Shown here piece by piece: positions 2,891 to 64,000 of a stretch of 64,000 bases of DNA. The position numbers were made by a program, and so were the translations under genes. This DNA comes from Sabellastarte sp. h YS-2021 (Eukaryota > Annelida > Polychaeta > Sabellida > Sabellidae). The stretch covers positions 9,896,496 through 9,960,495 of the forward strand of contig OZ024936.1 of the NCBI GenBank assembly GCA_964017235.1, given 5' to 3'. The stretch's first letter is position 1. Each line of letters begins with the position of its first letter. A model generated the notes under the pieces. The model ran no database searches, was not told the DNA's origin, and saw nothing but the letters and a program-made list of their open reading frames with translations.

Positions 2891-2893
2891 TTT

Positions 2894-3505: not shown

Positions 3506-3577
3506 AAGTTGCTGGATTTTCTGGGTATATATAAAATCAGCAATGTAATATCCTTGCTTTTCTGGGAACACAGCAGG

Positions 3578-4884: not shown

Positions 4885-4901
4885 GTCCTGCTGCAGTAAC
4901 C

Positions 4902-4965: not shown

Positions 4966-4984
4966 GCCAAATATTCCAAAAACA

Positions 4985-9408: not shown

Positions 9409-9489
9409 CCTTCTGAGTTCCCAGAAAAGCAATGATATTAGATTGCTGATTTTATATGTATATATATATATACCCAGAAAATCCAGCAA

Positions 9490-17820: not shown

Positions 17821-18180
17821 ACACGAAAATGAAAAATTGTGAATATCTCGGAAAAGCTATTTCTTCTGCTTTAATGCTCGGCGGGAGATACACACTGCGG
17901 CAGTGGTCTTGACAAAAATTTTTGTCTCCCAAAAAATGGTGGCCATTTTGAATTTTCAAAGTTTTTGCAAAACACAAAAATGCTTATATCTCGAAAACCG
18001 TGCTATATGGAGCAAACTCAACAAAATTTTTGACCTGCTGGGTATCTCTGCAGAGTAGTCATGCCAATTTTCAAAATATTTTTGTCTCGCCAAATATAGC
18101 GGACATTTTGCATTTTTAAATTTTTTTTGCAAAACACAAAAATGCTTATATCTTGAAAACCGTGCTAGATAGAGCACACT
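17821..18180. repeat. 168-bp satellite again, diverged copies
   Basis: About two copies of the unit seen at 16150-16754 reappear (AATGCTTATATCTCGAAAAC at 17979 and 18143, AAAAATGGTGGCCATTTTG near 17933). The 131-bp array is therefore inserted within, or grew inside, the 168-bp array. Confidence 0.85.
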
Positions 18181-19479: not shown

Positions 19480-21133
19480 GATATTTAGTGATGCCTATTT
19501 CATTGGCACCTATCTGAGTGATGCTTCTTGCCTTTGCATCCCTCCTGTATCCTTTGCATTCACCTCAGCAATGGGTATTTGCTGGTGTTCATGGTGAGTG
19601 ATAACTGATTTTTTTCAACCACCTAATTGATTGCTTACTTGGCATCCATCTGAGCAGTTGTTACTTTGGCAACAATTTGAGTGATGACTGAGACTTAGGC
19701 ATCAATCTGAGTGGTGACAGAATTTTTCATGCATATGACTGCTGGCTTTTACCTTAGCATCCATATGATTTATAGTTCATTTGTTGACATCCATATGAGT
19801 GATGTTTATTTCCTTTGCATCTTAGTTATAGCTGAATCCTTTGCATTCACCTCAGCAATGAGTATTTGCTTGTGTCTATGTGACAGCGTTCCCACATCCT
19901 TGAAAACCCTTGAAAAAATTGCTTCATTTTTTGGGCCTTGAAAGCCTTGAATTTGGCCAAACTTGAAGAAAATCCTTGAAAATTCCTTGAATTTGTTTTT
20001 GCCCAGCTTTTGCATCTGCATCAGTGAGTTTTATGTTATAATCATGTGACAAAAAAGAATTTTGTGGGAGGAACGGATGGCTAGAAGGGGAGGTAAAGGA
20101 GGCCATGCCTTCAAATATATCCTTGAGAATTGTTGTTGACCTTGAAAATCCTTGAAACAATCTTGAATCCAGTTATCAAAAGTCTGTGGGAACCCTGTGT
20201 TAGTGATAACTGATTTTTTCAACCACCTAATTGATTGCTTATTTGGCATCCATCTGAGCAGTTGCTTTTACTTTGGCAACGATTTGAGTGATGACTGAGA
20301 CTTTAAGCATCAATCTGAGTGGTGACAGAATTTTCCATGCATATGACTGCTGGCTTTAACCTTAGCATCCATATGATTTATAGTTCATTTCTTGACATCC
20401 ATATGAGTGATGTTTATTTCCTTTGCATCTTAGTTATAGCTGAATCCTTTGCATTCACCTCAGCAATGGGTATTTGCTTGCGTCCATGTGAGTGATAACT
20501 AATTTTTTTTAACCACCTAATTGATTGCTTACTTGGCATCCATCTGAGCAGTTGCTTTTACTTTGGCAACGATTTGAGTGATGACTGAGACTTAGGCATC
20601 AATCTGAGTGGTGACAGAATTTTTCATGCATATGACTGCTGGCTTTAACCTTAGCATCCATATGATTTATAGTTCATTTCTTGACATCCATATGAGTGAT
20701 GTTTATTTCCTTTGCATCTTAGTTATAGCTGTATCCTTTGTATTCACCTCAGCAATGGGCATTTCCTCGTGTCCATGCAAGTGATAACCGATTTTTGTGT
20801 CAACCACCTAATTTGATTGCTTACTTGGCATCCATCTGAGGGATTGCTGTGACTGTGGCGTCAAATTGAGCGACGACTGAGACTTTAGCATTCATCCAAG
20901 TGGTGACATCTTTGCATTGATCTGACAGCTGGCTTTTACATTATCATCCATCTGAGTTATCCCTGTTTCATTAGCACCCCTCTGAGTTGTGGTTCATTTC
21001 TATACATCCGCATGAGTGATGACTGTTCCTTTGTCTACAACCTCGTTGATTACTTGCTTTGTATCCATATGATTGATTTGTGCGACTTTCGCATCGATTT
21101 GAGTGTTGGCTTGAGACCCTGGCATCCACCTAA
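19480..21133. repeat. Diverged left margin of the satellite
   Basis: The first recognisable subunits (TTAGTGATGCCTATTTC, CACCTATCTGAGTGATGC) are followed by 290-bp modules at about 19610, 20210, 20500 and 20790. They are more varied than interior copies and interrupted by a short hAT-like insertion, as expected at an array edge. Confidence 0.85.
19884..20197. mobile_element. Short non-autonomous hAT-like element rich in CCTTGAAA
   Basis: 314 bp. It starts CAGCGTTCCCACA and ends TGTGGGAACCCTG, inverted ends of the hAT CAG...CTG type with one mismatch. The interior is filled with CCTTGAAA copies (19898-19990, 20130-20165). It splits a subunit (CTATGTGA before it, TGTTAGTG after it), so an 8-bp target duplication is blurred but possible. 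It has no coding capacity. Confidence 0.6.
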
Positions 21134-22868
21134 TTGGTGACAGAACTTTGCATCAACATGACCGCTGGCTTTTATTATGGCTTGTATGCATGTGCTTACT
21201 TAATTCTTGGCATTGGTTTTACTGGTAGCTGCGTCCTTGGTGTCCTAAATATGTGGCTATGCCCTTGGTGCCCGTGTGAGTGGTGGCTGTACACTTTGCA
21301 TCCATCTGGCTCTATACTGAGAATTTATCCGTCTGTGTACTTGATGTCCTGACTATTGGCTGTGTTATTGGTATCCATTTTACTTGTGTCTGTGTCCATC
21401 GCATTCATCTGTGTAATGTCTTTTCTTTGGTATGCATTTGAGTCATGGTTTGTACCTTGGCATATATATGAGTGATGCCTCTTACTTTAGCATCTGTTTT
21501 GGTGATGGCTGTGTCCTTTGCCTTCATCTCAATGATGGAAATTTCTTTGGCGTCTATCTGAGTGATGCTTCTTTCCTTTGCATCCATCTTAGTTATAGCT
21601 GTATCCTTTGCATTCACCTCAGCAATGGTTATTTGCTGGTGTTCATGGTGAGTGATAACTGATTTTTTTCAACCACCTAATTGATTGCTTGCTTGGCATC
21701 CATCTGAGCAGTTGTTACTTTGGCAACGATTTGAGTGATGACTGACACTTATGCATCAATCTGAGTGGTGACAGAATTTTTCATGCATATGACTGCTGGC
21801 TTTAACCTTAGCATCCATATGATTTATAGTTCATTTGTTGACATCCATATGAGTGATGTTTATTTCCTTTGCATCTTAGTTATAGCTGAATCCTTTGCAT
21901 TCACCTCAGCAATGGGTATTTGCTTGCGTCCATGTGAGTGATAACTTAATTTTTTTCAACCACCTAATTGATTGTTTACTTGGCATCCATCTGAGCAGTT
22001 GCTTTTACTTTGGCAACAATTTGAGTGATGACTGAGACTTTAAGCATCAATCTGAGTGGTGACAGAATTTTTCATGCATATGACTGCTGGCTTTAACCTT
22101 AGCATCCATATGATTTATAGTTCATTTCTTGACATCCATATGAGTGATGTTTATTTCCTTTGCATCTTAGTTATAGCTGAATCCTTTGCATTCACCTCAG
22201 CAATGGGTATTTGCTTGCGTCCATGTGAGTGATAACTTAATTTTTTTCAACCACCTAATTGATTGTTTACTTGGCATCCATCTGAGCAGTTGCTTTTACT
22301 TTGGCAACAATTTGAGTGATGACTGAGACTTTAAGCATCAATCTGAGTGGTGACAGAATTTTTCATGCATATGACTGCTGGCTTTAACCTTAGCATCCAT
22401 ATGATTTATAGTTCATTTCTTGACATCCATATGAGTGATGTTTATTTCCTTTGCATCTTAGTTATAGCTGAATCCTTTGCATTCACCTCAGCAAGGGGCG
22501 TTTCCTTGTCCATGCGAGTGATAACCCATTTTTGTGTGAACCACCTAATTTGATTGCTTACTTGGCATCCATCTGAGGGATTGCTGTGACTTTGGCGTCA
22601 AATTGAGTGATGACTGAGACTAGCATTCATCCAAGTGGTGACATCTTGCCATTGATCTGACAGCTGGCTTTTACGTTAGCATCCATCTGAGTTATCCCTG
22701 TTTCATTAGCATCCCTCTGAGTTATGGCTCATTTCTATACATCCGCATGAGTGATGACTGTTCCTTTGTCTACAACCTCGTTGATTACTTGCTTTGTATC
22801 CATATGATTGATTTGTGCGACTTTCGCATCGATTTGAGTGTTGGCTTGAGACCCTGGCATCCACCTAA
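21134..22868. repeat. Satellite monomer A0, three modules (1735 bp)
   Basis: The first well-formed core, followed by three 290-bp modules (about 21655, 21950, 22240). It has CACTTTGCATCC where later copies have TACTTGGCATCC, marking it as an edge variant. Confidence 0.85.
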
Positions 22869-24311
22869 TTGGTGACAGAACTTTGCATCAACATGACCGC
22901 TGGCTTTTATTATGGCTTGTATGCATGTGCTTACTTAATTCTTGGCATTGGTTTTACTGGTAGCTGCGTCCTTGGTGTTCTAAATATGTGGCTATGCCCT
23001 TGGTGCCCGTGTGAGTGGTGGCTGTATACTTGGCATCCATCTGGCTCTATACTGAGAATTTATCCGTCTGTGTACTTGATGTCCTGACTATTGGCTGTGT
23101 TATTGGTATCCATTTTACTTGTGTCTGTGTCCGTCGCATTCATCTGCGTAATGGCTTTTCTTTGGTATGCATTTGAGTCATGGTTTGTACCTTGGCATAT
23201 ATATGAGTGATGCCTCTTACTTTAGCATCTGTTTTGGTGATGGCTGTGTCCTTTGCCTTCATCTCAATGATGGAAATTTCGTTGGCGTCTATCTGAGTGA
23301 TGCTTCTTTCCTTTGCATCCATCTTAGTTATAGCTGTATCCTTTGCATTCACCTCAGCAATGGTTATTTGCTGGTGTTCATGGTGAGTGATAACTGATTT
23401 TTTTCAACCACCTAATTGATTGCTTACTTGGCATCCATCTGAGCAGTTGTTACTTTGGCAACGATTTGAGTGATGACTGAGACTTAGGCATCAATCTGAG
23501 TGGTGACAGAATTTTTCATGCATATGACTGCTGGCTTTAACCTTAGCATCCATATGATTTATAGTTCATTTGTTGACATCCATATGAGTGATGTTTATTT
23601 CCTTTGCATCTTAGTTATAGCTGAATCCTTTGCATTCACCTCAGCAATGGGTATTTGCTTGCGTCCATGTGAGTGATAACTGATTTTTTTCAACCACCTA
23701 ATTGATTGTTTACTTGGCATCCATCTGAGCAGTTGTTACTTTGGCAACGATTTGAGTGATGACTGAGACTTTAAGCATCAATCTGAGTGGTGACAGAATT
23801 TTTCATGCATATAACTGCTGGCTTTAACCTTAGCATCCATATGATTTATAGTTCATTTCTTGACATCCATATGAGTGATGTTTATTTCCTTTGCATCTTA
23901 GTTATAGCTGTATCCTTTGTGTTCACCTCAGCAATGGGCGTTTCCTCATGTCCATGCGAGTGATAACCGATTTTTGTGTCAACCACCTAATTTGATTGCT
24001 TACTTGGCATCCATCTGAGGGATTGCTGTGACTGTGGCGTCAAATTGAGCGACGACTGAGACTTTAGCATTCATCCAAGTGGTGACATCTTTGCATTGAT
24101 CTGACAGCTGGCTTTTACGTTATCATCCATCTGAGTTATCCCTGTTTCATTAGCACCCCTCTGAGTTGTGGTTCATTTCTATACATCCGCATGAGTGATG
24201 ACTGTTCCTTTGTCTACAACCTCGTTGATTACTTGTTTGCATCCATATGATTGATTTGTGCGACTTTCGCATCGATTTGAGTGTTGGCTTGATACCATGG
24301 CATCCACCTAA
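22869..24311. repeat. Satellite monomer type A (1443 bp)
   Basis: Two modules. The diagnostic variant is AAATTTCGTTGGCGTC (23275). The same variant recurs in the A monomers at 51905 and 63390. Confidence 0.85.
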
Positions 24312-27300
24312 GTGGTGACAGAACTTTGGATCAACATGACCGCTGGCTTTTATTATGGCTTGTATGCATGTGCTTACTTAATTCTTGGCATTGGTTTTAC
24401 TGGTAGCTGCGTCCTTGGTGTCCTAAATATGTGGCTATGCCCTTGGTGCCCGTGTGAGTGGTGGCTGTACACTTGGCATCCATCTGGCTCTATACTGAGA
24501 ATTTATCCGTCTGTGTACTTGATGTCCTGACTATTGGCTGTGTTATTGGTATCCATTTTACTTGTGTCTGTGTCCATCGCATTCATCTGTGTAATGTCTT
24601 TTCTTTGGTATGCATTTGAGTCATGGTTTGTACCTTGGCATATATATGAGTGATGCCTCTTACTTTAGCATCTGTTTTGGTGATGGCTGTGTCCTTTGCC
24701 TTCATCTCAATGATGGAAATTTTTTTGGCGTCTATCTGAGTGATGCTTCTTTCCTTTGCATCCATCTTAGTTATAGCTGTATCCTTTGCATTCACCTCAG
24801 CAATGGTTATTTGCTGGTGTTCATGGTGAGTGATAACTGATTTTTTTCAACCACCTAATTGATTGCTTGCTCATCTGAGCAGTTGTTACTTTGGCAACGA
24901 TTTGAGTGATGACTGAGACTTTAAGCATCAATCTGAGTGGTGACAGAATTTTTCATGCATATGACTGCTGGCTTTAACCTTAGCATCCATATGATTTATA
25001 GTTCATTTCTTGACATCCATATGAGTGATGTTTATTTTCTTTGCATCTTAGTTATAGCTGTATCCTTTGCATTCACCTCAGCAATGGGTATTTGCTGGTG
25101 TTTATGGTGAGTGATAACTGATTTTTTTAACCACCTAATTGATTGCTTACTTGGTATCCATCTGAGCAGTTGTTACTTTGGCAACGATTTGAGTGATGAC
25201 TGACACTTAGGCATCAATCTGAGTGGTGACACAATTTTTCATGCATATGACTGCTGGCTTTAACCTTAGCATTCATATGATTTATAGTTCATTTGTTGAC
25301 ATCCATATGAGTGATGTTTATTTCCTTTGCATCTTAGTTATAGCTGTATCCTTTGCATTCACCTCAGCAATGGGCGTTTCCTTGTGTCCATGCGAGTGAT
25401 AACCCATTTTTGTGTCACCCACCTAATTTGATTGCTTACTTGGCATCCATCTGAAGGATTGCTGTGACTTTGGCGTCAAATTGAGTGATGACGGAGACTT
25501 AAACATTCATCCAAGTGGTGACATCTTGCCATTGATCTGACAGCTGGCTTTTACGTTAGCATCCATCTGAGTTATCCCTGTTTCATTAGCATCCCTCTGA
25601 GTTATGGCTCATTACTATACATCCGCATGAGTGATGACTGTTCCTTTGTCTACAACCTCGTTGATTACTTGCTTTGTATCCATATGATTGATTTGTGCGA
25701 CTTTCGCATCGATTTGAGTGTTGGCTTGAGACCCTGGCATCCACCTAATTGGTGACAGAACTTTGCATCAACATGACCGCTGGCTTTTATTATGGCTTGT
25801 ATGCATGTGCTTACTTAATTCTTGGCATTGGTTTTACTGGTAGCTGCGTCCTTGGTGTTCTAAATATGTGGCTATGCCCTTGGTGCCCGTGTGAGTGGTG
25901 GCTGTATACTTGGCATCCATCTGGCTCTATACTGAGAATTTATCCGTCTGTGTACTTGATGTCCTGACTAGTGGCTGTGTTATTGGTATCCATTTTACTT
26001 GTCTGTGTCCATCGCATTCATCTGTGTAATGGCTTTTCTTTGGTATGCATTTGAGTCATGGTTTGTACCTTGGCATATATATGAGTGATGGCTCTTACTT
26101 TAGCATCTGTTTTGGTGATGGCTGTGTCCTTTGCCTTCATCTCAGTGATGGAAATTTCTTTGGCGTCTATCTGAGTGATGCTTCTTTCCTTTGCATCCAT
26201 CTTAGTTATAGCTGTATCCTTTGCATTCACCTCAGCAATGGTTATTTGCTGGTGTTCATGGTGAGTGATAACTGATTTTTTTTCAACCACCTAATTGATT
26301 GCTTGCTTGGCATCCATCTGAGCAGTTGTTACTTTGGCAACGATTTGAGTGATGACTGACACTTATGCATCAATCTGAGTGGTGACAGAATTTTTCATGC
26401 ATATGACTGCTGGCTTTAACCTTAGCATCCATATGATTTATAGTTCATTTGTTGACATCCATATGAGTGATGTTTATTTCCTTTGCATCTTAGTTATAGC
26501 TGAATCCTTTGCATTCACCTCAGCAATGGGTATTTCCTTGCGTCCATGTGAGTGATAACTTAATTTTTTTCAACCACCTAATTGATTGTTTACTTGGCAT
26601 CCATCTGAGCAGTTGCTTTTACTTTGGCAACAATTTGAGTGATGACTGAGACTTTAAGCATCAATCTGAGTGGTGACAGAATTTTTCATGCATATGACTG
26701 CTGGCTTTAACCTTAGCATCCATATGATTTATAGTTCATTTCTTGACATCCATATGAGTGATGTTTATTTCCTTTGCATCTTAGTTATAGCTGAATCCTT
26801 TGCATTCACCTCAGCAAGGGGCGTTTCCTTGTCCATGCGAGTGATAACCCATTTTTGTGTGAACCACCTAATTTGATTGCTTACTTGGCATCCATCTGAG
26901 GGATTGCTGTGACTTTGGCGTCAAATTGAGTGATGACTGAGACTAGCATTCATCCAAGTGGTGACATCTTGCCATTGATCTGACAGCTGGCTTTTACGTT
27001 AGCATCCATCTGAGTTATCCCTGTTTCATTAGCATCCCTCTGAGTTATGGCTCATTTCTATACATCCGCATGAGTGATGACTGTTCCTTTGTCTACAACC
27101 TCGTTGATTACTTGCTTTGTATCCATATGATTGATTTGTGCGACTTTCGCATCGATTTGAGTGTTGGCTTGAGACCCTGGCATCCACCTAAGTGGTGACA
27201 GAACTTTGCATCAACATGACCGCTGGCTTTTATTATGGCTTGTATGCATGTGCTTACTTAATTCTTGGCATTGGTTTTACTGGTAGCTGCGTCCTTGGTG

Positions 27301-30300
27301 TTCTAAATATGTGGCTATGCCCTTGGTGCCCGTGTGAGTGGTGGCTGTATACTTGGCATCCATCTGGCTCTATACTGAGAATTTATCCGTCTGTGTACTT
27401 GATGTCCTGACTATTGGCTGTGTTATTGGTATCCATTTTACTTGTGTCTGTGTCCATCGCATTCATCTGCGTAATGGCTTTTCTTTGGTATGCATTTGAG
27501 TCATGGTTTGTACCTTGGCATATATATGAGTGATGGCTCTTACTTTAGCATCTGATTTGGTGATGGCTGTGTCCTTTGCCTTCATCTCAATGATGGAAAT
27601 TTCTTTGGCATCTGAGTGATGCTTCTTTCCTTTGCATCCATCTTAGTTATAGCTGTATCCTTTGCATTCACCTCAGCAATGGGTATTTGCTGGTGTTCAT
27701 GGTGAGTGATAACTGATTTTTTTCAACCACCTAATTGATTGCTTACTTGGCATCCATCTGAGCAGTTGTTACTTTGGCAACGATTTGAGTGATGACTGAC
27801 ACTTAGGCATCAATCTGAGTGGTGACAGAATTTTTCATGCATATGACTGCTGGCTTTAACCTTAGCATTCATATGATTTATAGTTCATTTGTTGACATCC
27901 ATATGAGTGATGTTTATTTCCTTTGCATCTTAGTTATAGCTGTATCCTTTGCATTCACCTCAGCAATGGGCGTTTCCTTGTGTCCATGCGAGTGATAACC
28001 CATTTTTGTGTCACCCACCTAATTTGATTGCTTACTTGGCATCCATCTGAAGGATTGCTGTGACTTTGGCGTCAAATTGAGTGATGACGGAGACTTAAAC
28101 ATTCATCCAAGTGGTGACATCTTGCCATTGATCTGACAGCTGGCTTTTACGTTAGCATCCATCTGAGTTATCCCTGTTTCATTAGCATCCCTCTGAGTTA
28201 TGGCTCATTACTATACATCCGCATGAGTGATGACTGTTCCTTTGTCTACAACCTTGTTGATTACTTGCTTTGTATCCATATGATTGATTTGTGCGACTTT
28301 CGCATCGATTTGAGTGTTGGCTTGAGACCCTGGCATCCACCTAATTGGTGACAGAACTTTGCATCAACATGACCGCTGGCTTTTATTATGGCTTGTATGC
28401 ATGTGCTTACTTAATTCTTGGCATTGGTTTTACTGGTAGCTGTGTCCTTGGTGTTCTAAATATGTGGCTATGCCCTTGGTGCCCGTGTGAGTGGTGGCTG
28501 TATACTTGGCATCCATCTGGCTCTATACTGAGAATTTATCCGTCTGTGTACTTGATGTCCTGACTAGTGGCTGTGTTATTGGTATCCATTTTACTTGTGT
28601 CTGTGTCCATCGCATTCATCTGTGTAATGGCTTTTCTTTGGTATGCATTTGAGTCATGGTTTGTACCTTGGCATATATATGAGTGATGGCTCTTACTTTA
28701 GCATCTGTTTTGGTGATGGCTGTGTCCTTTGCCTTCATCTCAGTGATGGAAATTTCTTTGGCGTCTATCTGAGTGATGCTTCTTTCCTTTGCATCCATCT
28801 TAGTTATAGCTGTATCCTTTGCATTCACCTCAGCAATGGTTATTTGCTGGTGTTCATGGTGAGTGATAACTGATTTTTTTCAACCACCTAATTGATTGCT
28901 TACTTGGCATCCATCTGAGCAGTTGTTACTTTGGCAACGATTTGAGTGATGACTGACACTTAGGCATCAATCTGAGTGGTGACAGAATTTTTCATGCATA
29001 TGACTGCTGGCTTTAACCTTAGCATTCATATGATTTATAGTTCATTTGTTGACATCCATATGAGTGATGTTTATTTCCTTTGCATCTTAGTTATAGCTGT
29101 ATCCTTTGCATTCACCTCAGCAATGGGCGTTTCCTTGTGTCCATGCGAGTGATAACCCATTTTTGTGTCACCCACCTAATTTGATTGCTTACTTGGCATC
29201 CATCTGAAGGATTGCTGTGACTTTGGCGTCAAATTGAGTGATGACGGAGACTTAAACATTCATCCAAGTGGTGATATCTTGCCATTGATCTGACAGCTGG
29301 CTTTTACGTTAGCATCCATCTGAGTTATCCCTGTTTCATTAGCATCCCTCTGAGTTATGGCTCATTACTATACATCCGCATGAGTGATGACTGTTCCTTT
29401 GTCTACAACCTTGTTGATTACTTGCTTTGTATCCATATGATTGATTTGTGCGACTTTCGCATCGATTTGAGTGTTGGCTTGAGACCCTGGCATCCACCTA
29501 ATTGGTGACAGAACTTTGCATCAACATGACCGCTGGCTTTTATTATGGCTTGTATGCATGTGCTTACTTAATTCTTGGCATTGGTTTTACTGGTAGCTGT
29601 GTCCTTGGTGTTCTAAATATGTGGCTATGCCCTTGGTGCCCGTGTGAGTGGTGGCTGTATACTTGGCATCCATCTGGCTCTATACTGAGAATTTATCCGT
29701 CTGTGTACTTGATGTCCTGACTAGTGGCTGTGTTATTGGTATCCATTTTACTTGTGTCTGTGTCCATCGCATTCATCTGTGTAATGGCTTTTCTTTGGTA
29801 TGCATTTGAGTCATGGTTTGTACCTTGGCATATATATGAGTGATGGCTCTTACTTTAGCATCTGTTTTGGTGATGGCTGTGTCCTTTGCCTTCATCTCAG
29901 TGATGGAAATTTCTTTGGCGTCTATCTGAGTGATGCTTCTTTCCTTTGCATCCATCTTAGTTATAGCTGTATCCTTTGCATTCACCTCAGCAATGGTTAT
30001 TTGCTGGTGTTCATGGTGAGTGATAACTGATTTTTTTCAACCACCTAATTGATTGCTTACTTGGCATCCATCTGAGCAGTTGTTACTTTGGCAACGATTT
30101 GAGTGATGACTGACACTTAGGCATCAATCTGAGTGGTGACAGAATTTTTCATGCATATGACTGCTGGCTTTAACCTTAGCATCCATATGATTTATAGTTC
30201 ATTTGTTGACATCCATATGAGTGATGTTTATTTCCTTTGCATCTTAGTTATAGCTGAATCCTTTGCATTCACCTCAGCAATGGGTATTTGCTTGCGTCCA

Positions 30301-32648
30301 TGTGAGTGATAACTTAATTTTTTTCAACCACCTAATTGATTGTTTACTTGGCATCCATCTGAGCAGTTGTTGTTACTTTGGCAACAATTTGAGTGATGAC
30401 TGAGACTTTAAGCATCAATCTGAGTGGTGACAGAATTTTTCATGCATATGACTGCTGGCTTTAACCTTAGCATCCATATGATTTATAGTTCATTTCTTGA
30501 CATCCATATGAGTGATGTTTATTTCCTTTGCATCTTAGTTATAGCTGAATCCTTTGCATTCACCTCAGCAAGGGGCGTTTCCTTGTCCATGCGAGTGATA
30601 ACCCATTTTTGTGTGAACCACCTAATTGATTGTTTACTTGGCATCCATCTGAGCAGTTGCTTTTACTTTGGCAACGATTTGAGTGATGACTGAGACTTTA
30701 AGCATCATTCTGAGTGGTGACAGAATTTTTCATGCATATGACTGCTGGCTTTAACCTTAGCATCCATATGATTTATAGTTCATTTCTTGACATCCATATG
30801 AGTGATGTTTATTTTCTTTGCATCTTAGTTATAGCTGTATCCTTTGCATTCACCTCAGCAAGGGGCGTTTCCTTGTCCATGCGAGTGATAACCGATTTTT
30901 GTGTCAACCACCTAATTTGATTGCTTACTTGGCATCCATCTGAGGGATTGCTGTGACTTTGGCGTCAAATTGAGTGACGACTGAGACTTTAGCATTCATC
31001 CAAGTGGTGACATCTTTCAATTGATCTGACAGCTGGCTTTTTCGTTAGCATCCCTCTGAGTTATGGCTCATTTCTATACATCCGCATGAGTGATGACTGT
31101 TCCTTTGTCTACAACCTCGTTGATTACTTGCTTTGTATCCATATGATTGATTTGTGCGACTTTCGCATCGATTTGAGTGTTGGCTTGAGACCCTGGCATC
31201 CACCTAATTGGTGACAGAACTTTGCATCAACATGACCGCTGGATTTTAATATGGCTTGTATGCATGTGCTTACTTAATTCTTGGCATTGGTTTTACTGGT
31301 AGCTGCGTCCTTGGTGTTCTAAATATGTGGCTATGCCCTTGGTGCCCGTGTGAGTGGTGGCTGTATACTTGGCATTCATCTGGCTCTATACTGAGAATTT
31401 ATCCATCTGTGTACTTGATGTCTTGACTATTGGCTGTGTTATTGGTATCCATTTTACTTGTGTCTGTGTCCGTCGCATTCATTTGCGTAATGGCTTTTCT
31501 TTGGTATGCATTTGAGTCATGGTTTGTACCTTGGCATATATATGAGTGATGCCTCTTACTTTAGCATCTGTTTTGGTGATGGCTGTGTCCTTTGCCTTCA
31601 TCTCAATGATGGAAATTTCTTTGGCGTCTATCTGAGTGATGCTTCTTTCCTTTGCATCCATCTTAGTTATAGCTGTATCCTTTGCATTCACCTCAGCAAT
31701 GGTTATTTGCTGGTGTTCATGGTGAGTGATAACTGATTTTTTTCAACCACCTAATTGATTGCTTGCTTGGCATCCATCTGAGCAGTTGTTACTTTGGCAA
31801 CGATTTGAGTGATGACTGACACTTATGCATCAATCTGAGTGGTGACAGAATTTTTCATGCATATGACTGCTGGCTTTAACCTTAGCATCCATATGATTTA
31901 TAGTTCATTTGTTGACATCCATATGAGTGATGTTTATTTCCTTTGCATCTTAGTTATAGCTGAATCCTTTGCATTCACCTCAGCAATGGGTATTTGCTTG
32001 CGTCCATGTGAGTGATAACTTAATTTTTTTCAACCACCTAATTGATTGTTTACTTGACATCCATCTGAGCAGTTGTTACTTTGGCAACGATTTGAGTGAT
32101 GACTGAGACTTTAAGCATCAATCTGAGTGGTGACAGAATTTTTCATGCATATAACTGCTGGCTTTAACCTTAGCATCCATATGATTTATAGTTCATTTCT
32201 TGACATCCATATGAGTGATGTTTATTTCCTTTGCATCTTAGTTATAGCTGTATCCTTTGTATTCACCTCAGCAATGGGCGTTTCCTCATGTCCATGCGAG
32301 TGATAACCGATTTTTGTGTCAACCACCTAATTTGATTGCTTACTTGGCATCCATCTGAGGGATTGCTGTGACTGTGGCGTCAAATTGAGCGACGACTGAG
32401 ACTTTAGCATTCATCCAAGTGGTGACATCTTTGCATTGATCTGACAGCTGGCTTTTACGTTATCCATCTGAGTTATCCCTGTTTCATTAGCACCCCTCTG
32501 AGTTGTGGTTCATTTCTATACATCCGCATGAGTGATGACTGTTCCTTTGTCTACAACCTCGTTGATTACTTGTTTGCATCCATATGATTGATTTGTGCGA
32601 CTTTCGCATCGATTTGAGTGTTGGCTTGATACCATGGCATCCACCTAA
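24312..32648. repeat. Higher-order block B-C-D-E-F-G, first copy (8337 bp)
   Basis: Monomer starts: B 24312, C 25749, D 27192, E 28345, F 29502, G 31208. Markers: B has CTTTGGATCAAC. C has a 4-bp shorter CTTGTCTGTGTCC. D lacks part of GGCGTCTATCTGAG. F has GTGATATCTTGCC. G has GCTGGATTTTAATATGG. Confidence 0.85.
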
Positions 32649-51904: not shown

Positions 51905-54900
51905 TTGGTGACAGAACTTTGCATCAACATGACCGCTGGCTTTTATTATGGCTTGTATGCATGTGCTTACTTAATTCTTGGCATTGGTTTTACTGGTAGC
52001 TGCGTCCTTGGTGTTCTAAATATGTGGCTATGCCCTTGGTGCCCGTGTGAGTGGTGGCTGTATACTTGGCATCCATCTGGCTCTATACTGAGAATTTATC
52101 CGTCTGTGTACTTGATGTCCTGACTATTGGCTGTGTTATTGGTATCCATTTTACTTGTGTCTGTGTCCGTCGCATTCATCTGCGTAATGGCTTTTCTTTG
52201 GTATGCATTTGAGTCATGGTTTGTACCTTGGCATATATATGAGTGATGCCTCTTACTTTAGCATCTGTTTTGGTGATGGCTGTGTCCTTTGCCTTCATCT
52301 CAATGATGGAAATTTCGTTGGCGTCTATCTGAGTGATGCTTCTTTCCTTTGCATCCATCTTAGTTATAGCTGTATCCTTTGCATTCACCTCAGCAATGGT
52401 TATTTGCTGGTGTTCATGGTGAGTGATAACTGATTTTTTTCAACCACCTAATTGATTGCTTACTTGGCATCCATCTGAGCAGTTGTTACTTTGGCAACGA
52501 TTTGAGTGATGACTGAGACTTAGGCATCAATCTGAGTGGTGACAGAATTTTTCATGCATATGACTGCTGGCTTTAACCTTAGCATCCATATGATTTATAG
52601 TTCATTTGTTGACATCCATATGAGTGATGTTTATTTCCTTTGCATCTTAGTTATAGCTGAATCCTTTGCATTCACCTCAGCAATGGGTATTTGCTTGCGT
52701 CCATGTGAGTGATAACTGATTTTTTTCAACCACCTAATTGATTGTTTACTTGGCATCCATCTGAGCAGTTGTTACTTTGGCAACGATTTGAGTGATGACT
52801 GAGACTTTAAGCATCAATCTGAGTGGTGACAGAATTTTTCATGCATATAACTGCTGGCTTTAACCTTAGCATCCATATGATTTATAGTTCATTTCTTGAC
52901 ATCCATATGAGTGATGTTTATTTCCTTTGCATCTTAGTTATAGCTGTATCCTTTGTATTCACCTCAGCAATGGGCGTTTCCTCATGTCCATGCGAGTGAT
53001 AACCGATTTTTGTGTCAACCACCTAATTTGATTGCTTACTTGGCATCCATCTGAGGGATTGCTGTGACTGTGGCGTCAAATTGAGCGACGACTGAGACTT
53101 TAGCATTCATCCAAGTGGTGACATCTTTGCATTGATCTGACAGCTGGCTTTTACGTTATCCATCTGAGTTATCCCTGTTTCATTAGCACCCCTCTGAGTT
53201 GTGGTTCATTTCTATACATCCGCATGAGTGATGACTGTTCCTTTGTCTACAACCTCGTTGATTACTTGTTTGCATCCATATGATTGATTTGTGCGACTTT
53301 CGCATCGATTTGAGTGTTGGCTTGATACCATGGCATCCACCTAAGTGGTGACAGAACTTTGGATCAACATGACCGCTGGCTTTTATTATGGCTTGTATGC
53401 ATGTGCTTACTTAATTCTTGGCATTGGTTTTACTGGTAGCTGCGTCCTTGGTGTCCTAAATATGTGGCTATGCCCTTGGTGCCCGTGTGAGTGGTGGCTG
53501 TACACTTGGCATCCATCTGGCTCTATACTGAGAATTTATCCGTCTGTGTACTTGATGTCCTGACTATTGGCTGTGTTATTGGTATCCATTTTACTTGTGT
53601 CTGTGTCCATCGCATTCATCTGTGTAATGTCTTTTCTTTGGTATGCATTTGAGTCATGGTTTGTACCTTGGCATATATATGAGTGATGCCTCTTACTTTA
53701 GCATCTGTTTTGGTGATGGCTGTGTCCTTTGCCTTCATCTCAATGATGGAAATTTCTTTGGCGTCTATCTGAGTGATGCTTCTTTCCTTTGCATCCATCT
53801 TAGTTATAGCTGTATCCTTTGCATTCACCTCAGCAATGGTTATTTGCTGGTGTTCATGGTGAGTGATAACTGATTTTTTTCAACCACCTAATTGATTGCT
53901 TGCTCATCTGAGCAGTTGTTACTTTGGCAACGATTTGAGTGATGACTGAGACTTTAAGCATCAATCTGAGTGGTGACAGAATTTTTCATGCATATGACTG
54001 CTGGCTTTAACCTTAGCATCCATATGATTTATAGTTCATTTCTTGACATCCATATGAGTGATGTTTATTTTCTTTGCATCTTAGTTATAGCTGTATCCTT
54101 TGCATTCACCTCAGCAATGGGTATTTGCTGGTGTTTATGGTGAGTGATAACTGATTTTTTTAACCACCTAATTGATTGCTTACTTGGTATCCATCTGAGC
54201 AGTTGTTACTTTGGCAACGATTTGAGTGATGACTGACACTTAGGCATCAATCTGAGTGGTGACACAATTTTTCATGCATATGACTGCTGGCTTTAACCTT
54301 AGCATTCATATGATTTATAGTTCATTTGTTGACATCCATATGAGTGATGTTTATTTCCTTTGCATCTTAGTTATAGCTGTATCCTTTGCATTCACCTCAG
54401 CAATGGGCGTTTCCTTGTGTCCATGCGAGTGATAACCCATTTTTGTGTCACCCACCTAATTTGATTGCTTACTTGGCATCCATCTGAAGGATTGCTGTGA
54501 CTTTGGCGTCAAATTGAGTGATGACGGAGACTTAAACATTCATCCAAGTGGTGACATCTTGCCATTGATCTGACAGCTGGCTTTTACGTTAGCATCCATC
54601 TGAGTTATCCCTGTTTCATTAGCATCCCTCTGAGTTATGGCTCATTACTATACATCCGCATGAGTGATGACTGTTCCTTTGTCTACAACCTCGTTGATTA
54701 CTTGCTTTGTATCCATATGATTGATTTGTGCGACTTTCGCATCGATTTGAGTGTTGGCTTGAGACCCTGGCATCCACCTAATTGGTGACAGAACTTTGCA
54801 TCAACATGACCGCTGGCTTTTATTATGGCTTGTATGCATGTGCTTACTTAATTCTTGGCATTGGTTTTACTGGTAGCTGCGTCCTTGGTGTTCTAAATAT

Positions 54901-57900
54901 GTGGCTATGCCCTTGGTGCCCGTGTGAGTGGTGGCTGTATACTTGGCATCCATCTGGCTCTATACTGAGAATTTATCCGTCTGTGTACTTGATGTCCTGA
55001 CTAGTGGCTGTGTTATTGGTATCCATTTTACTTGTCTGTGTCCATCGCATTCATCTGTGTAATGGCTTTTCTTTGGTATGCATTTGAGTCATGGTTTGTA
55101 CCTTGGCATATATATGAGTGATGGCTCTTACTTTAGCATCTGTTTTGGTGATGGCTGTGTCCTTTGCCTTCATCTCAGTGATGGAAATTTCTTTGGCGTC
55201 TATCTGAGTGATGCTTCTTTCCTTTGCATCCATCTTAGTTATAGCTGTATCCTTTGCATTCACCTCAGCAATGGTTATTTGCTGGTGTTCATGGTGAGTG
55301 ATAACTGATTTTTTTCAACCACCTAATTGATTGCTTACTTGGCATCCATCTGAGCAGTTGTTACTTTGGCAACGATTTGAGTGATGACTGACACTTAGGC
55401 ATCAATCTGAGTGGTGACAGAATTTTTCATGCATATGACTGCTGGCTTTAACCTTAGCATCCATATGATTTATAGTTCATTTGTTGACATCCATATGAGT
55501 GATGTTTATTTCCTTTGCATCTTAGTTATAGCTGAATCCTTTGCATTCACCTCAGCAATGGGTATTTGCTTGCGTCCATGTGAGTGATAACTTAATTTTT
55601 TTCAACCACCTAATTGATTGTTTACTTGGCATCCATCTGAGCAGTTGTTGTTACTTTGGCAACAATTTGAGTGATGACTGAGACTTTAAGCATCAATCTG
55701 AGTGGTGACAGAATTTTTCATGCATATGACTGCTGGCTTTAACCTTAGCATCCATATGATTTATAGTTCATTTCTTGACATCCATATGAGTGATGTTTAT
55801 TTCCTTTGCATCTTAGTTATAGCTGAATCCTTTGCATTCACCTCAGCAAGGGGCGTTTCCTTGTCCATGCGAGTGATAACCCATTTTTGTGTGAACCACC
55901 TAATTGATTGTTTACTTGGCATCCATCTGAGCAGTTGCTTTTACTTTGGCAACGATTTGAGTGATGACTGAGACTTTAAGCATCATTCTGAGTGGTGACA
56001 GAATTTTTCATGCATATGACTGCTGGCTTTAACCTTAGCATCCATATGATTTATAGTTCATTTCTTGACATCCATATGAGTGATGTTTATTTTCTTTGCA
56101 TCTTAGTTATAGCTGTATCCTTTGCATTCACCTCAGCAAGGGGCGTTTCCTTGTCCATGCGAGTGATAACCGATTTTTGTGTCAACCACCTAATTTGATT
56201 GCTTACTTGGCATCCATCTGAGGGATTGCTGTGACTTTGGCGTCAAATTGAGTGACGACTGAGACTTTAGCATTCATCCAAGTGGTGACATCTTTCAATT
56301 GATCTGACAGCTGGCTTTTTCGTTAGCATCCCTCTGAGTTATGGCTCATTTCTATACATCCGCATGAGTGATGACTGTTCCTTTGTCTACAACCTCGTTG
56401 ATTACTTGCTTTGTATCCATATGATTGATTTGTGCGACTTTCGCATCGATTTGAGTGTTGGCTTGAGACCCTGGCATCCACCTAATTGGTGACAGAACTT
56501 TGCATCAACATGACCGCTGGATTTTAATATGGCTTGTATGCATGTGCTTACTTAATTCTTGGCATTGGTTTTACTGGTAGCTGCGTCCTTGGTGTTCTAA
56601 ATATGTGGCTATGCCCTTGGTGCCCGTGTGAGTGGTGGCTGTATACTTGGCATTCATCTGGCTCTATACTGAGAATTTATCCATCTGTGTACTTGATGTC
56701 TTGACTATTGGCTGTGTTATTGGTATCCATTTTACTTGTGTCTGTGTCCGTCGCATTCATTTGCGTAATGGCTTTTCTTTGGTATGCATTTGAGTCATGG
56801 TTTGTACCTTGGCATATATATGAGTGATGCCTCTTACTTTAGCATCTGTTTTGGTGATGGCTGTGTCCTTTGCCTTCATCTCAATGATGGAAATTTCTTT
56901 GGCGTCTATCTGAGTGATGCTTCTTTCCTTTGCATCCATCTTAGTTATAGCTGTATCCTTTGCATTCACCTCAGCAATGGTTATTTGCTGGTGTTCATGG
57001 TGAGTGATAACTGATTTTTTTCAACCACCTAATTGATTGCTTGCTTGGCATCCATCTGAGCAGTTGTTACTTTGGCAACGATTTGAGTGATGACTGACAC
57101 TTATGCATCAATCTGAGTGGTGACAGAATTTTTCATGCATATGACTGCTGGCTTTAACCTTAGCATCCATATGATTTATAGTTCATTTGTTGACATCCAT
57201 ATGAGTGATGTTTATTTCCTTTGCATCTTAGTTATAGCTGAATCCTTTGCATTCACCTCAGCAATGGGTATTTGCTTGCGTCCATGTGAGTGATAACTTA
57301 ATTTTTTTCAACCACCTAATTGATTGTTTACTTGGCATCCATCTGAGCAGTTGCTTTTACTTTGGCAACAATTTGAGTGATGACTGAGACTTTAAGCATC
57401 AATCTGAGTGGTGACAGAATTTTTCATGCATATGACTGCTGGCTTTAACCTTAGCATCCATATGATTTATAGTTCATTTCTTGACATCCATATGAGTGAT
57501 GTTTATTTCCTTTGCATCTTAGTTATAGCTGAATCCTTTGCATTCACCTCAGCAAGGGGCGTTTCCTTGTCCATGCGAGTGATAACCCATTTTTGTGTGA
57601 ACCACCTAATTTGATTGCTTACTTGGCATCCATCTGAGGGATTGCTGTGACTTTGGCGTCAAATTGAGTGATGACTGAGACTAGCATTCATCCAAGTGGT
57701 GACATCTTGCCATTGATCTGACAGCTGGCTTTTACGTTAGCATCCATCTGAGTTATCCCTGTTTCATTAGCATCCCTCTGAGTTATGGCTCATTTCTATA
57801 CATCCGCATGAGTGATGACTGTTCCTTTGTCTACAACCTCGTTGATTACTTGCTTTGTATCCATATGATTGATTTGTGCGACTTTCGCATCGATTTGAGT

Positions 57901-57929
57901 GTTGGCTTGAGACCCTGGCATCCACCTAA
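51905..57929. repeat. Rearranged block A-B-(C/F hybrid)-G (6025 bp)
   Basis: Starts A 51905, B 53345, C/F 54782, G 56486. The third monomer begins as C (CTTGTCTGTGTCC near 55033) but ends with three modules like F, so D and E are skipped. This is the footprint of an unequal exchange inside the monomer. Confidence 0.8.
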
Positions 57930-60900
57930 GTGGTGACAGAACTTTGCATCAACATGACCGCTGGCTTTTATTATGGCTTGTATGCATGTGCTTACTTAAT
58001 TCTTGGCATTGGTTTTACTGGTAGCTGCGTCCTTGGTGTTCTAAATATGTGGCTATGCCCTTGGTGCCCGTGTGAGTGGTGGCTGTATACTTGGCATCCA
58101 TCTGGCTCTATACTGAGAATTTATCCGTCTGTGTACTTGATGTCCTGACTATTGGCTGTGTTATTGGTATCCATTTTACTTGTGTCTGTGTCCATCGCAT
58201 TCATCTGCGTAATGGCTTTTCTTTGGTATGCATTTGAGTCATGGTTTGTACCTTGGCATATATATGAGTGATGGCTCTTACTTTAGCATCTGATTTGGTG
58301 ATGGCTGTGTCCTTTGCCTTCATCTCAATGATGGAAATTTCTTTGGCATCTGAGTGATGCTTCTTTCCTTTGCATCCATCTTAGTTATAGCTGTATCCTT
58401 TGCATTCACCTCAGCAATGGGTATTTGCTGGTGTTCATGGTGAGTGATAACTGATTTTTTTCAACCACCTAATTGATTGCTTACTTGGCATCCATCTGAG
58501 CAGTTGTTACTTTGGCAACGATTTGAGTGATGACTGACACTTAGGCATCAATCTGAGTGGTGACAGAATTTTTCATGCATATGACTGCTGGCTTTAACCT
58601 TAGCATTCATATGATTTATAGTTCATTTGTTGACATCCATATGAGTGATGTTTATTTCCTTTGCATCTTAGTTATAGCTGTATCCTTTGCATTCACCTCA
58701 GCAATGGGCGTTTCCTTGTGTCCATGCGAGTGATAACCCATTTTTGTGTCACCCACCTAATTTGATTGCTTACTTGGCATCCATCTGAAGGATTGCTGTG
58801 ACTTTGGCGTCAAATTGAGTGATGACGGAGACTTAAACATTCATCCAAGTGGTGACATCTTGCCATTGATCTGACAGCTGGCTTTTACGTTAGCATCCAT
58901 CTGAGTTATCCCTGTTTCATTAGCATCCCTCTGAGTTATGGCTCATTACTATACATCCGCATGAGTGATGACTGTTCCTTTGTCTACAACCTTGTTGATT
59001 ACTTGCTTTGTATCCATATGATTGATTTGTGCGACTTTCGCATCGATTTGAGTGTTGGCTTGAGACCCTGGCATCCACCTAATTGGTGACAGAACTTTGC
59101 ATCAACATGACCGCTGGCTTTTATTATGGCTTGTATGCATGTGCTTACTTAATTCTTGGCATTGGTTTTACTGGTAGCTGTGTCCTTGGTGTTCTAAATA
59201 TGTGGCTATGCCCTTGGTGCCCGTGTGAGTGGTGGCTGTATACTTGGCATCCATCTGGCTCTATACTGAGAATTTATCCGTCTGTGTACTTGATGTCCTG
59301 ACTAGTGGCTGTGTTATTGGTATCCATTTTACTTGTGTCTGTGTCCATCGCATTCATCTGTGTAATGGCTTTTCTTTGGTATGCATTTGAGTCATGGTTT
59401 GTACCTTGGCATATATATGAGTGATGGCTCTTACTTTAGCATCTGTTTTGGTGATGGCTGTGTCCTTTGCCTTCATCTCAGTGATGGAAATTTCTTTGGC
59501 GTCTATCTGAGTGATGCTTCTTTCCTTTGCATCCATCTTAGTTATAGCTGTATCCTTTGCATTCACCTCAGCAATGGTTATTTGCTGGTGTTCATGGTGA
59601 GTGATAACTGATTTTTTTCAACCACCTAATTGATTGCTTACTTGGCATCCATCTGAGCAGTTGTTACTTTGGCAACGATTTGAGTGATGACTGACACTTA
59701 GGCATCAATCTGAGTGGTGACAGAATTTTTCATGCATATGACTGCTGGCTTTAACCTTAGCATTCATATGATTTATAGTTCATTTGTTGACATCCATATG
59801 AGTGATGTTTATTTCCTTTGCATCTTAGTTATAGCTGTATCCTTTGCATTCACCTCAGCAATGGGCGTTTCCTTGTGTCCATGCGAGTGATAACCCATTT
59901 TTGTGTCACCCACCTAATTTGATTGCTTACTTGGCATCCATCTGAAGGATTGCTGTGACTTTGGCGTCAAATTGAGTGATGACGGAGACTTAAACATTCA
60001 TCCAAGTGGTGATATCTTGCCATTGATCTGACAGCTGGCTTTTACGTTAGCATCCATCTGAGTTATCCCTGTTTCATTAGCATCCCTCTGAGTTATGGCT
60101 CATTACTATACATCCGCATGAGTGATGACTGTTCCTTTGTCTACAACCTTGTTGATTACTTGCTTTGTATCCATATGATTGATTTGTGCGACTTTCGCAT
60201 CGATTTGAGTGTTGGCTTGAGACCCTGGCATCCACCTAATTGGTGACAGAACTTTGCATCAACATGACCGCTGGCTTTTATTATGGCTTGTATGCATGTG
60301 CTTACTTAATTCTTGGCATTGGTTTTACTGGTAGCTGTGTCCTTGGTGTTCTAAATATGTGGCTATGCCCTTGGTGCCCGTGTGAGTGGTGGCTGTATAC
60401 TTGGCATCCATCTGGCTCTATACTGAGAATTTATCCGTCTGTGTACTTGATGTCCTGACTAGTGGCTGTGTTATTGGTATCCATTTTACTTGTGTCTGTG
60501 TCCATCGCATTCATCTGTGTAATGGCTTTTCTTTGGTATGCATTTGAGTCATGGTTTGTACCTTGGCATATATATGAGTGATGGCTCTTACTTTAGCATC
60601 TGTTTTGGTGATGGCTGTGTCCTTTGCCTTCATCTCAGTGATGGAAATTTCTTTGGCGTCTATCTGAGTGATGCTTCTTTCCTTTGCATCCATCTTAGTT
60701 ATAGCTGTATCCTTTGCATTCACCTCAGCAATGGTTATTTGCTGGTGTTCATGGTGAGTGATAACTGATTTTTTTCAACCACCTAATTGATTGCTTACTT
60801 GGCATCCATCTGAGCAGTTGTTACTTTGGCAACGATTTGAGTGATGACTGACACTTATGCATCAATCTGAGTGGTGACAGAATTTTTCATGCATATGACT

Positions 60901-63389
60901 GCTGGCTTTAACCTTAGCATCCATATGATTTATAGTTCATTTGTTGACATCCATATGAGTGATGTTTATTTCCTTTGCATCTTAGTTATAGCTGAATCCT
61001 TTGCATTCACCTCAGCAATGGGTATTTGCTTGCGTCCATGTGAGTGATAACTTAATTTTTTTCAACCACCTAATTGATTGTTTACTTGGCATCCATCTGA
61101 GCAGTTGTTGTTACTTTGGCAACAATTTGAGTGATGACTGAGACTTTAAGCATCAATCTGAGTGGTGACAGAATTTTTCATGCATATGACTGCTGGCTTT
61201 AACCTTAGCATCCATATGATTTATAGTTCATTTCTTGACATCCATATGAGTGATGTTTATTTCCTTTGCATCTTAGTTATAGCTGAATCCTTTGCATTCA
61301 CCTCAGCAAGGGGCGTTTCCTTGTCCATGCGAGTGATAACCCATTTTTGTGTGAACCACCTAATTGATTGTTTACTTGGCATCCATCTGAGCAGTTGCTT
61401 TTACTTTGGCAACGATTTGAGTGATGACTGAGACTTTAAGCATCATTCTGAGTGGTGACAGAATTTTTCATGCATATGACTGCTGGCTTTAACCTTAGCA
61501 TCCATATGATTTATAGTTCATTTCTTGACATCCATATGAGTGATGTTTATTTTCTTTGCATCTTAGTTATAGCTGTATCCTTTGCATTCACCTCAGCAAG
61601 GGGCGTTTCCTTGTCCATGCGAGTGATAACCGATTTTTGTGTCAACCACCTAATTTGATTGCTTACTTGGCATCCATCTGAGGGATTGCTGTGACTTTGG
61701 CGTCAAATTGAGTGACGACTGAGACTTTAGCATTCATCCAAGTGGTGACATCTTTCAATTGATCTGACAGCTGGCTTTTTCGTTAGCATCCCTCTGAGTT
61801 ATGGCTCATTTCTATACATCCGCATGAGTGATGACTGTTCCTTTGTCTACAACCTCGTTGATTACTTGCTTTGTATCCATATGATTGATTTGTGCGACTT
61901 TCGCATCGATTTGAGTGTTGGCTTGAGACCCTGGCATCCACCTAATTGGTGACAGAACTTTGCATCAACATGACCGCTGGATTTTAATATGGCTTGTATG
62001 CATGTGCTTACTTAATTCTTGGCATTGGTTTTACTGGTAGCTGCGTCCTTGGTGTTCTAAATATGTGGCTATGCCCTTGGTGCCCGTGTGAGTGGTGGCT
62101 GTATACTTGGCATTCATCTGGCTCTATACTGAGAATTTATCCATCTGTGTACTTGATGTCTTGACTATTGGCTGTGTTATTGGTATCCATTTTACTTGTG
62201 TCTGTGTCCGTCGCATTCATTTGCGTAATGGCTTTTCTTTGGTATGCATTTGAGTCATGGTTTGTACCTTGGCATATATATGAGTGATGCCTCTTACTTT
62301 AGCATCTGTTTTGGTGATGGCTGTGTCCTTTGCCTTCATCTCAATGATGGAAATTTCTTTGGCGTCTATCTGAGTGATGCTTCTTTCCTTTGCATCCATC
62401 TTAGTTATAGCTGTATCCTTTGCATTCACCTCAGCAATGGTTATTTGCTGGTGTTCATGGTGAGTGATAACTGATTTTTTTCAACCACCTAATTGATTGC
62501 TTGCTTGGCATCCATCTGAGCAGTTGTTACTTTGGCAACGATTTGAGTGATGACTGACACTTATGCATCAATCTGAGTGGTGACAGAATTTTTCATGCAT
62601 ATGACTGCTGGCTTTAACCTTAGCATCCATATGATTTATAGTTCATTTGTTGACATCCATATGAGTGATGTTTATTTCCTTTGCATCTTAGTTATAGCTG
62701 AATCCTTTGCATTCACCTCAGCAATGGGTATTTGCTTGCGTCCATGTGAGTGATAACTTAATTTTTTTCAACCACCTAATTGATTGTTTACTTGACATCC
62801 ATCTGAGCAGTTGCTTTTACTTTGGCAACAATTTGAGTGATGACTGAGACTTTAAGCATCAATCTGAGTGGTGACAGAATTTTTCATGCATATGACTGCT
62901 GGCTTTAACCTTAGCATCCATATGATTTATAGTTCATTTCTTGACATCCATATGAGTGATGTTTATTTCCTTTGCATCTTAGTTATAGCTGAATCCTTTG
63001 CATTCACCTCAGCAAGGGGCGTTTCCTTGTCCATGCGAGTGATAACCCATTTTTGTGTGAACCACCTAATTTGATTGCTTACTTGGCATCCATCTGAGGG
63101 ATTGCTGTGACTTTGGCGTCAAATTGAGTGATGACTGAGACTAGCATTCATCCAAGTGGTGACATCTTGCCATTGATCTGACAGCTGGCTTTTACGTTAG
63201 CATCCATCTGAGTTATCCCTGTTTCATTAGCATCCCTCTGAGTTATGGCTCATTTCTATACATCCGCATGAGTGATGACTGTTCCTTTGTCTACAACCTC
63301 GTTGATTACTTGCTTTGTATCCATATGATTGATTTGTGCGACTTTCGCATCGATTTGAGTGTTGGCTTGAGACCCTGGCATCCACCTAA
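57930..63389. repeat. Higher-order block D-E-F-G (5460 bp)
   Basis: Starts D 57930, E 59083, F 60240, G 61946. The G again has TTGACATCC (62793) and is followed by A, repeating the order seen 11,485 bp earlier. Confidence 0.9.
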
Positions 63390-64000
63390 TTGGTGACAGA
63401 ACTTTGCATCAACATGACCGCTGGCTTTTATTATGGCTTGTATGCATGTGCTTACTTAATTCTTGGCATTGGTTTTACTGGTAGCTGCGTCCTTGGTGTT
63501 CTAAATATGTGGCTATGCCCTTGGTGCCCGTGTGAGTGGTGGCTGTATACTTGGCATCCATCTGGCTCTATACTGAGAATTTATCCGTCTGTGTACTTGA
63601 TGTCCTGACTATTGGCTGTGTTATTGGTATCCATTTTACTTGTGTCTGTGTCCGTCGCATTCATCTGCGTAATGGCTTTTCTTTGGTATGCATTTGAGTC
63701 ATGGTTTGTACCTTGGCATATATATGAGTGATGCCTCTTACTTTAGCATCTGTTTTGGTGATGGCTGTGTCCTTTGCCTTCATCTCAATGATGGAAATTT
63801 CGTTGGCGTCTATCTGAGTGATGCTTCTTTCCTTTGCATCCATCTTAGTTATAGCTGTATCCTTTGCATTCACCTCAGCAATGGTTATTTGCTGGTGTTC
63901 ATGGTGAGTGATAACTGATTTTTTTCAACCACCTAATTGATTGCTTACTTGGCATCCATCTGAGCAGTTGTTACTTTGGCAACGATTTGAGTGATGACTG
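63390..64000. repeat. Satellite monomer type A, cut by window end
   Basis: It carries the AAATTTCGTTGGCGTC marker (63794) of type A. The array clearly continues beyond the window. Confidence 0.85.

Follow-up and report, generated by a model that had tools for sequence, protein, structure and literature searches.

A satellite array with several nested repeat levels built from 30-bp units on one contig of a Sabellastarte genome

Array 1 and its repeat levels

The window analyzed here is a stretch of 64,000 nucleotides from the sabellid annelid Sabellastarte sp. h YS-2021 (contig OZ024936.1, hereafter C14; C14:9,896,496-9,960,495 in the 1.786-Gb assembly), and most of it is occupied by a satellite of 30-bp units in the same orientation, which we call array 1 (19462-64000 by its left edge and the unit decomposition, no strand assigned). 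In the mitochondrial contig, AGA/AGG codons stand at conserved serine positions, AAA codons at lysines, and TGA codons within COX1 and COB, so that the code is not that of a vertebrate and the host is probably a protostome. Array 1 is a single tandem array that fills the window from ~19.46 kb to the window end, save one insertion of ~317 bp. Beyond the window it continues as far as ~74,640 (numbered from the first letter of the window), giving a total of ~55 kb (C14:9.916-9.971 Mb), and 38 anchors of its recurrent core, described below, are found across its whole length. A sequence-only reading of the window had placed the array at 19480-64000. The tandem array itself stands, but these limits do not, as the start is nearer 19,460, the end is at ~74,640, and 19882-20198 is an inserted element containing no satellite. 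The 44.5 kb of array 1 inside the window contains 3,173 distinct 20-mers and has a CpG observed/expected ratio of 0.31 (0.37 in the left flank). No 10-bp phasing of AA/TT dinucleotides, a signal of curvature or nucleosome positioning, was seen, the ratio at lag 10 being 0.82.

The window part of array 1, with the inserted element left out, was decomposed into 1,501 units of 30 bp, of which 1,500 have at least 22 aligned bases. The units have a mean identity of 0.705 to the window consensus, TTTGCATCCATCTGAGTGATGGCTGTTTCC, and fall into 130 distinct strings. In wrap-around alignment to this consensus, one 1,735-bp monomer scored 1292, compared with -113 ± 28 for 15 dinucleotide shuffles and -386 to -548 for seven 1,735-bp control windows from the left flank. 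This score and the ~1,500 units bear out the 30-bp level that had been proposed. The unit pattern had no match among IMG/VR viral contigs. The next proposed level, of ~290 bp, is equally clear: about ten units form a module (reference copy, of class d, at 21645-21935, plus strand), and the window holds 60 module copies in 10 sequence classes that are 93.6-98.3% identical to each other (mean 0.962).

Modules are combined with a core into monomers. The reference core (22515-23379, plus strand) is 865 bp long and consists of ~29 diverged 30-bp units; it also holds degenerate module-like stretches, the three longest of which match module f at 71-77% and which are older than the modules. Each monomer contains a core of ~865 bp plus 1, 2 or 3 modules, with lengths of 1,157, 1,435-1,444 and 1,706-1,735 bp, respectively. 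The 31 core anchors in the window are spaced by 1153/1157, 1437-1444, 1704/1706 and 1735 bp, as expected from the earlier proposal that monomer length follows the number of modules. Among the five types checked, the core measures 861-867 bp in four; that of the 1,706-bp type is shorter by one 30-bp unit, at 837 bp. When the 30 complete monomers were clustered (without the insertion-bearing edge monomer and the truncated pieces at either end of the window), they formed six clusters, one of which divides by one constant base, and we matched these to the seven types A-G named previously. In those letters, the order of monomers is A BC DEFG BC DEFG DEFG DEFG D'BC G DEFG D'. The types differ by 0.35-3.6%, with a mean identity of 0.975 between types and 0.999 within types; between C and E the difference is 0.35% once a single module, present in one and absent from the other, is set aside.

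The four-monomer block DEFG occurs in five copies on the plus strand, at 26258-31718 (5461 bp), 34595-40051 (5457 bp), 40052-45511, 45512-50971 and 56997-62456 (5460 bp each), with 0-5 differing columns between them. The block had been described as repeating at exactly 5,460 bp in four copies; its near identity is confirmed, but the count is five and the length varies between 5,457 and 5,461 bp. Above this block lies an 11,485-bp repeat of eight monomers (G DEFG D' B C), the first copy of which spans 43806-55290 on the plus strand and the second of which, at 55291-66775, runs past the window end. The identity at offset 11,485 is 99.85% over 43541-55912, in agreement with the 11.5-kb level noted before. 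The blocks (0-5 differing columns per ~5,460 bp) are more alike than the monomer types that compose them (0.975 on average), so that array 1 has the higher-order repeat (HOR) organization from minisatellite-size subunits that had been suggested.

Block copies 3 and 4 do not differ at any of their 5,460 bp, and there is an exact match of 10,090 bp at offset 5,460, a pattern that would also arise if the assembly had repeated or mis-ordered 5.46-kb blocks. We consider it improbable that the identical blocks are partly such an artefact, because block copies 1, 2 and 5 have private differences, the succession of blocks is broken by B, C and D' monomers, and the 144 kb examined contains no Ns.

Related arrays and a proposed origin

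A second array, array 2, lies 5.6 kb downstream of array 1 in the same orientation (~80.2 to ~140.7 kb in window coordinates, ~60 kb). It is made of a plain 1,273-bp monomer with 47 matches, 42 of which are 98.7-100% identical to the central query monomer, while the five at the ends are 96.1-97.8% identical. On contig C18, an array of ~87 kb starts at 2.787 Mb with periods of 417 and 2,159 bp; its middle 40 kb is known from DNA-search matches throughout. Further along C18, at 5.745 Mb, the 30-bp unit is found as a nearly homogeneous array (35 copies, 91% matches), whose unit agrees with the window consensus at 27 of 30 bases. Diverged units are present at C18:6.65 Mb, on the opposite strand, at C6:138.28-138.33 Mb and on C15, a contig of 1.27 Mb. 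At C18:5.745 Mb (positions 4825-5160 of stretch L024), two 30-bp arrays are parted by sequence with a dispersed element of ~158 bp, which gave 1,868 first-look candidates genome-wide and is perhaps a clue to the seeding of the 30-bp unit.

To describe the family genome-wide, we counted a 23-base unit pattern with up to three mismatches and obtained 547 forward and 22 reverse matches; the reversed control of this pattern had no genome match. The stretches that were read contain 480 forward and 17 reverse matches, and those of the remaining 72 that were listed are on C6, C15 and C18. DNA searches with three different stretches, in a search that skips very common words and scores the best candidates only, and in an assembly that may omit arrays, placed the 30-bp family on C6, C14 and C18 only. 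A protein search added C15, together with weak matches at C18:17.566 Mb and C6:136.62 Mb. The first of these was rejected as a family locus when it proved to be another, homogeneous 30-bp minisatellite (positions 1467-3142 of stretch L039; 56 copies, 93% matches, several frames open) that adjoins a frame recognized by eye as reverse-transcriptase-like, indicating that 30-bp periods recur in this genome.

The consensus units of nine stretches are 0-4 of 30 bases off that of the window, with weakly matching stretches leaning to the starting consensus. Array 1, array 2, C18:2.79-2.81 and C18:5.745 share no 25-mer. Loci nonetheless have collinear blocks in common, of ~630 bp at 72-75% between array 2 and C6 and of ~375 bp at 0.70 between array 1 and C18:2.8, and these blocks are older. 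When stretches were compared in pairs, 16 of 21 pairs, including a same-array pair, exceeded every one of 15 unit-permuted controls. The periods are specific to each locus (5,460/11,485, 1,273 and 417/2,159 bp), which implies that related 30-bp units were assembled into a different higher order at each locus.

These arrays have nested identities, shuffled variants and locus-specific periods, and we propose, with a probability of about 0.82, that array 1 is a non-coding, minisatellite-derived satellite that evolves locally by unequal crossing-over and gene conversion at several registers, separately at each locus. We infer unequal exchange as the mechanism and a 30-bp array as the ancestor. In this scheme, a 30-bp tandem repeat close to the window consensus would have seeded a few places in the genome. 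The units would then have diverged at each locus, with blocks of about ten units becoming modules and several modules becoming a monomer. Unequal crossing-over, together with gene conversion, would have acted at progressively larger registers to amplify and homogenize a block locus by locus, and the periods listed above for array 1, array 2 and C18 would be the outcome.

Several observations carry this proposal. Identity rises with each level, from units through module classes to monomers between and within types and finally to blocks, and length changes consist of whole modules or a whole 30-bp unit. Variants are shuffled among monomers: across 14 distinct monomers, the 60 informative sites give 1,770 site pairs, and 127 of these fail the four-gamete test, corresponding to a minimum of five exchanges provided that mutations do not recur. 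In addition, the inserted element is confined to the edge monomer, as the lengths of the other 30 monomers exclude the insertion. This, along with the end monomers of array 2, which are 96-98.8% identical compared with at least 99% close to the reference monomer, is expected if array ends escape homogenization. Taken together, the graded identities, whole-unit lengths, shuffled variants and edge-only insertion form the pattern expected of unequal crossing-over and conversion at multiple registers.

Other points weigh against this proposal. The four-gamete failures can come partly from recurrent mutation, rolling-circle reinsertion would likewise yield identical long blocks, and the identity of two 5,460-bp blocks could be an assembly error. 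Five of the 21 stretch pairs are not above the permuted controls, including the pair of array 1 and C18:6.653 and that of array 2 and C18:2.79. Moreover, when one monomer is read in the minus-strand frame in which the 30-bp unit gives a decapeptide, 193 of 451 changes fall at third positions (its modules being counted three times) and 125 of 451 are synonymous, where 0.20 is expected. This lean is non-significant with 38 units, but a coding ancestor may have existed.

Coding and centromeric alternatives

The monomer contains a recurrent open frame of ~86 amino acids (21411-21668, minus strand) with a decapeptide-like ITQMDAK reading, which we judge to be a by-product of the 30-bp period and not a gene. 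Compared with the first copy of this 86-codon frame, eight other copies, one of them trimmed to length, show no silent change and 1-3 replacement changes each. Each minus frame has 761-777 stops over the 44.5 kb, and frame-shifting indels occur about once per unit (59 in 59). Among the 38 units of array 1, 71 of 304 substitutions in the decapeptide frame are synonymous (expected fraction 0.200 ± 0.023), and no codon pattern is significant (permutation p = 0.30). Array 1 thus shows neither a significant silent-site bias nor the frame-preserving indels of a protein-coding repeat; with stops and frame shifts throughout, it has the features of non-coding satellite DNA as judged from its letters, and we rejected the C14 array as protein-coding.

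Coding elsewhere in the family is a separate matter. One reading, at odds that we consider long, is that a single ten-codon repeat was the source both of an expressed decapeptide-repeat protein, at C18:6.65 or C18:5.745 Mb, and of non-coding satellites that arose independently elsewhere, each with a higher-order structure specific to its locus; if true, a genome can acquire satellites from coding repeats on more than one occasion. We also consider unlikely a decayed protein-coding repeat, in which the unit, read on the minus strand (...AITQMDAKDT...), would be ten codons from a gene with an amplified repeat exon, and some loci may still code. Open frames do exist outside C14: C18:6.653 Mb (positions 2949-3602 of stretch L025) has a frame of 217 amino acids with 20 diverged ITQMDAK-like units and no net frame shift, and C18:5.745 Mb has 269 amino acids open in the decapeptide frame and open frames of up to 363 amino acids. 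The non-significant lean of array 1 to third-position and synonymous changes points the same way. However, the homogeneous 30-bp array can be read through in four frames, three of them minus and one plus, and synonymous changes amount to 41 of 169 at C18:6.653 and 10 of 76 at C18:5.745, again with 0.20 expected, so that there is no clear silent bias. The C18:5.745 frame matches Pfam HC2 with an E-value of 6.2e-9, but at 36.7 bits it is below the cut-off of 40, and we take this as a low-complexity match. None of the three frames scanned reached its Pfam cut-off, and the C18:6.653 frame, the sole one compared with PDB, had no match. The many frame shifts of the C14 arrays, and the many stops of array 1, also argue against a coding repeat.

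The earlier reading had suggested that the array may be centromeric, pericentromeric or sex-linked. It could in principle be the centromere of C14, or a part or flank of it, binding CENP-A or forming a cohesion domain, and such a centromere might be private to a single chromosome. The higher-order organization, the CpG ratio of 0.31 (though the left flank is likewise low) and a left flank rich in transposons and tandem repeats would fit. On the other hand, the 30-bp family was found on only three (C6, C14 and C18) of at least 13 contigs past 30 Mb, as counted from the coordinates of search results, and on the small C15. Its arrays of ~55, ~60 and ~87 kb are all under 100 kb, whereas a centromeric satellite would be expected on most chromosomes in megabase arrays. 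The loci lie 9.9 Mb (C14, 99.7 Mb long) and 2.8-6.7 Mb (C18, 94.9 Mb) from one contig end and, at 138.3 of 143.6 Mb on C6, 5.3 Mb from the other; the genome has only three exact (TTAGGG)6 matches, so the contig ends are uninformative on true telomeres. The array in the window has no CENP-B-like box, a motif present in part of alpha satellite: the single match to the CENP-B box with one mismatch in the window, where 1.73 are expected by chance, falls at 13672-13686 and hence not in the array (a passage of PMC7288315 quotes the motif as well). Given the few contigs, the small arrays, the missing box and the absence of a 25-mer shared by the four arrays, we regard a centromeric role as very doubtful. 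Most likely, the array has no effect on its chromosome beyond local heterochromatin or copy-number change.

Precedents and neighboring elements

Satellites of this kind are already known from ruminants, mollusks and the human alpha satellite. Ruminant satellite I (bovine 1.715; cervid satellite I) is reportedly treated by Lee et al. 1997 and Bogenberger et al. 1985. It resembles array 1 in having a subrepeat of ~30 bp, monomers of ~1 kb whose size depends on the lineage, and tandem arrays. According to PMC7288315 and PMC2760882, it is held to derive from a 31-bp subrepeat and has 0.8- and 1-kb monomers in deer, where, according to the former, it is the commonest family and centromeric. In contrast, the family described here belongs to an invertebrate genome, in which it occupies few loci in small arrays with a 30-bp period, and it has modules as a distinct level as well as blocks of 5-11 kb. 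The likeness is drawn from organization, and by this analogy ruminant satellite I would be a closer precedent than alpha satellite. In the molluskan satellite Ac4p1 of Adamussium colbecki, repeats of ~33 bp are formed from subrepeats of ~11 bp, and unequal crossing-over and slippage are invoked for new higher-order units, as excerpted from PMC5874043. Molluskan satellites share short subrepeats in variable number with array 1. However, the excerpt describes Ac4p1 as 33-bp repeats in a short clone, whereas multi-kilobase blocks are the feature here.

Alpha satellite has 171-bp monomers and is found at the centromeres of all chromosomes. Its near-identical multi-monomer blocks are comparable to those of array 1, and its cascading HORs, where a single HOR copy contains the same monomer type more than once (PMC11050224), have a counterpart in the recurrent monomer types inside the 11,485-bp block. 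The resemblance to alpha satellite drawn by the sequence-only reading is therefore apt for the HOR blocks and loose otherwise, because the monomers here are ~1.2-1.7 kb long, occur at few loci and are only 0.35-3.6% apart, with the strong divergence being at the 30-bp unit. A portion of PMC4053949 is also cited among the precedents for this kind of satellite. Literature searches, made without the species name, found no description of array 1; a search combining nested minisatellite-derived higher-order structure with macrosatellite returned nothing, and one for the chicken W XhoI repeats, a possible analogue, gave none.

What is unusual here is how many levels there are and that neighboring arrays differ in period. 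Within a single genome, related 30-bp units have produced at least three higher-order architectures, of which two are separated by 5.6 kb, and a near-homogeneous 30-bp array is still present. This makes the family a small natural experiment on satellite growth by nested amplification and on the reach of homogenization. The array alone answers no long-standing question, as the processes are already described in other satellites.

The insertion in the edge monomer (19882-20198, no strand assigned) is a dispersed element of ~317 bp that resembles a miniature inverted-repeat transposable element. Its ends are CAGCGTTCCCACA and TGTGGGAACCCTG, which would make it hAT-like, a target-site duplication not being established. 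Of 943 first-look candidates, 40 were scored, and all 40, on many contigs, are full or nearly full length; the 39 copies other than that of the window are 88-91% identical.

The left flank of array 1 contains further repeats. A large inverted repeat at 3128-9873, with longer arm pieces that are 92-100% complementary and a center near 6.5 kb, carries two Harbinger-type DDE_Tnp_4 fragments in opposite orientations. Within this inverted Harbinger region, 7036-7081 matches the Histone 3' UTR stem-loop at 35.8 bits (Rfam gathering threshold 34), and similar AGTCCTTTTCAGGACT hairpins are present near 4.9 kb and near 8.05 kb. Inspection by eye of the listed frames, those of 120 amino acids or more, revealed no histone gene. 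A piggyBac-type transposase (DDE_Tnp_1_7, zf-Tnp_2) is split across two overlapping frames at 13849-15221. Closer to array 1, two adjoining tandem arrays at 16157-17821 have periods of 169 and 133 bp and appear by eye to be unrelated to the 30-bp family.

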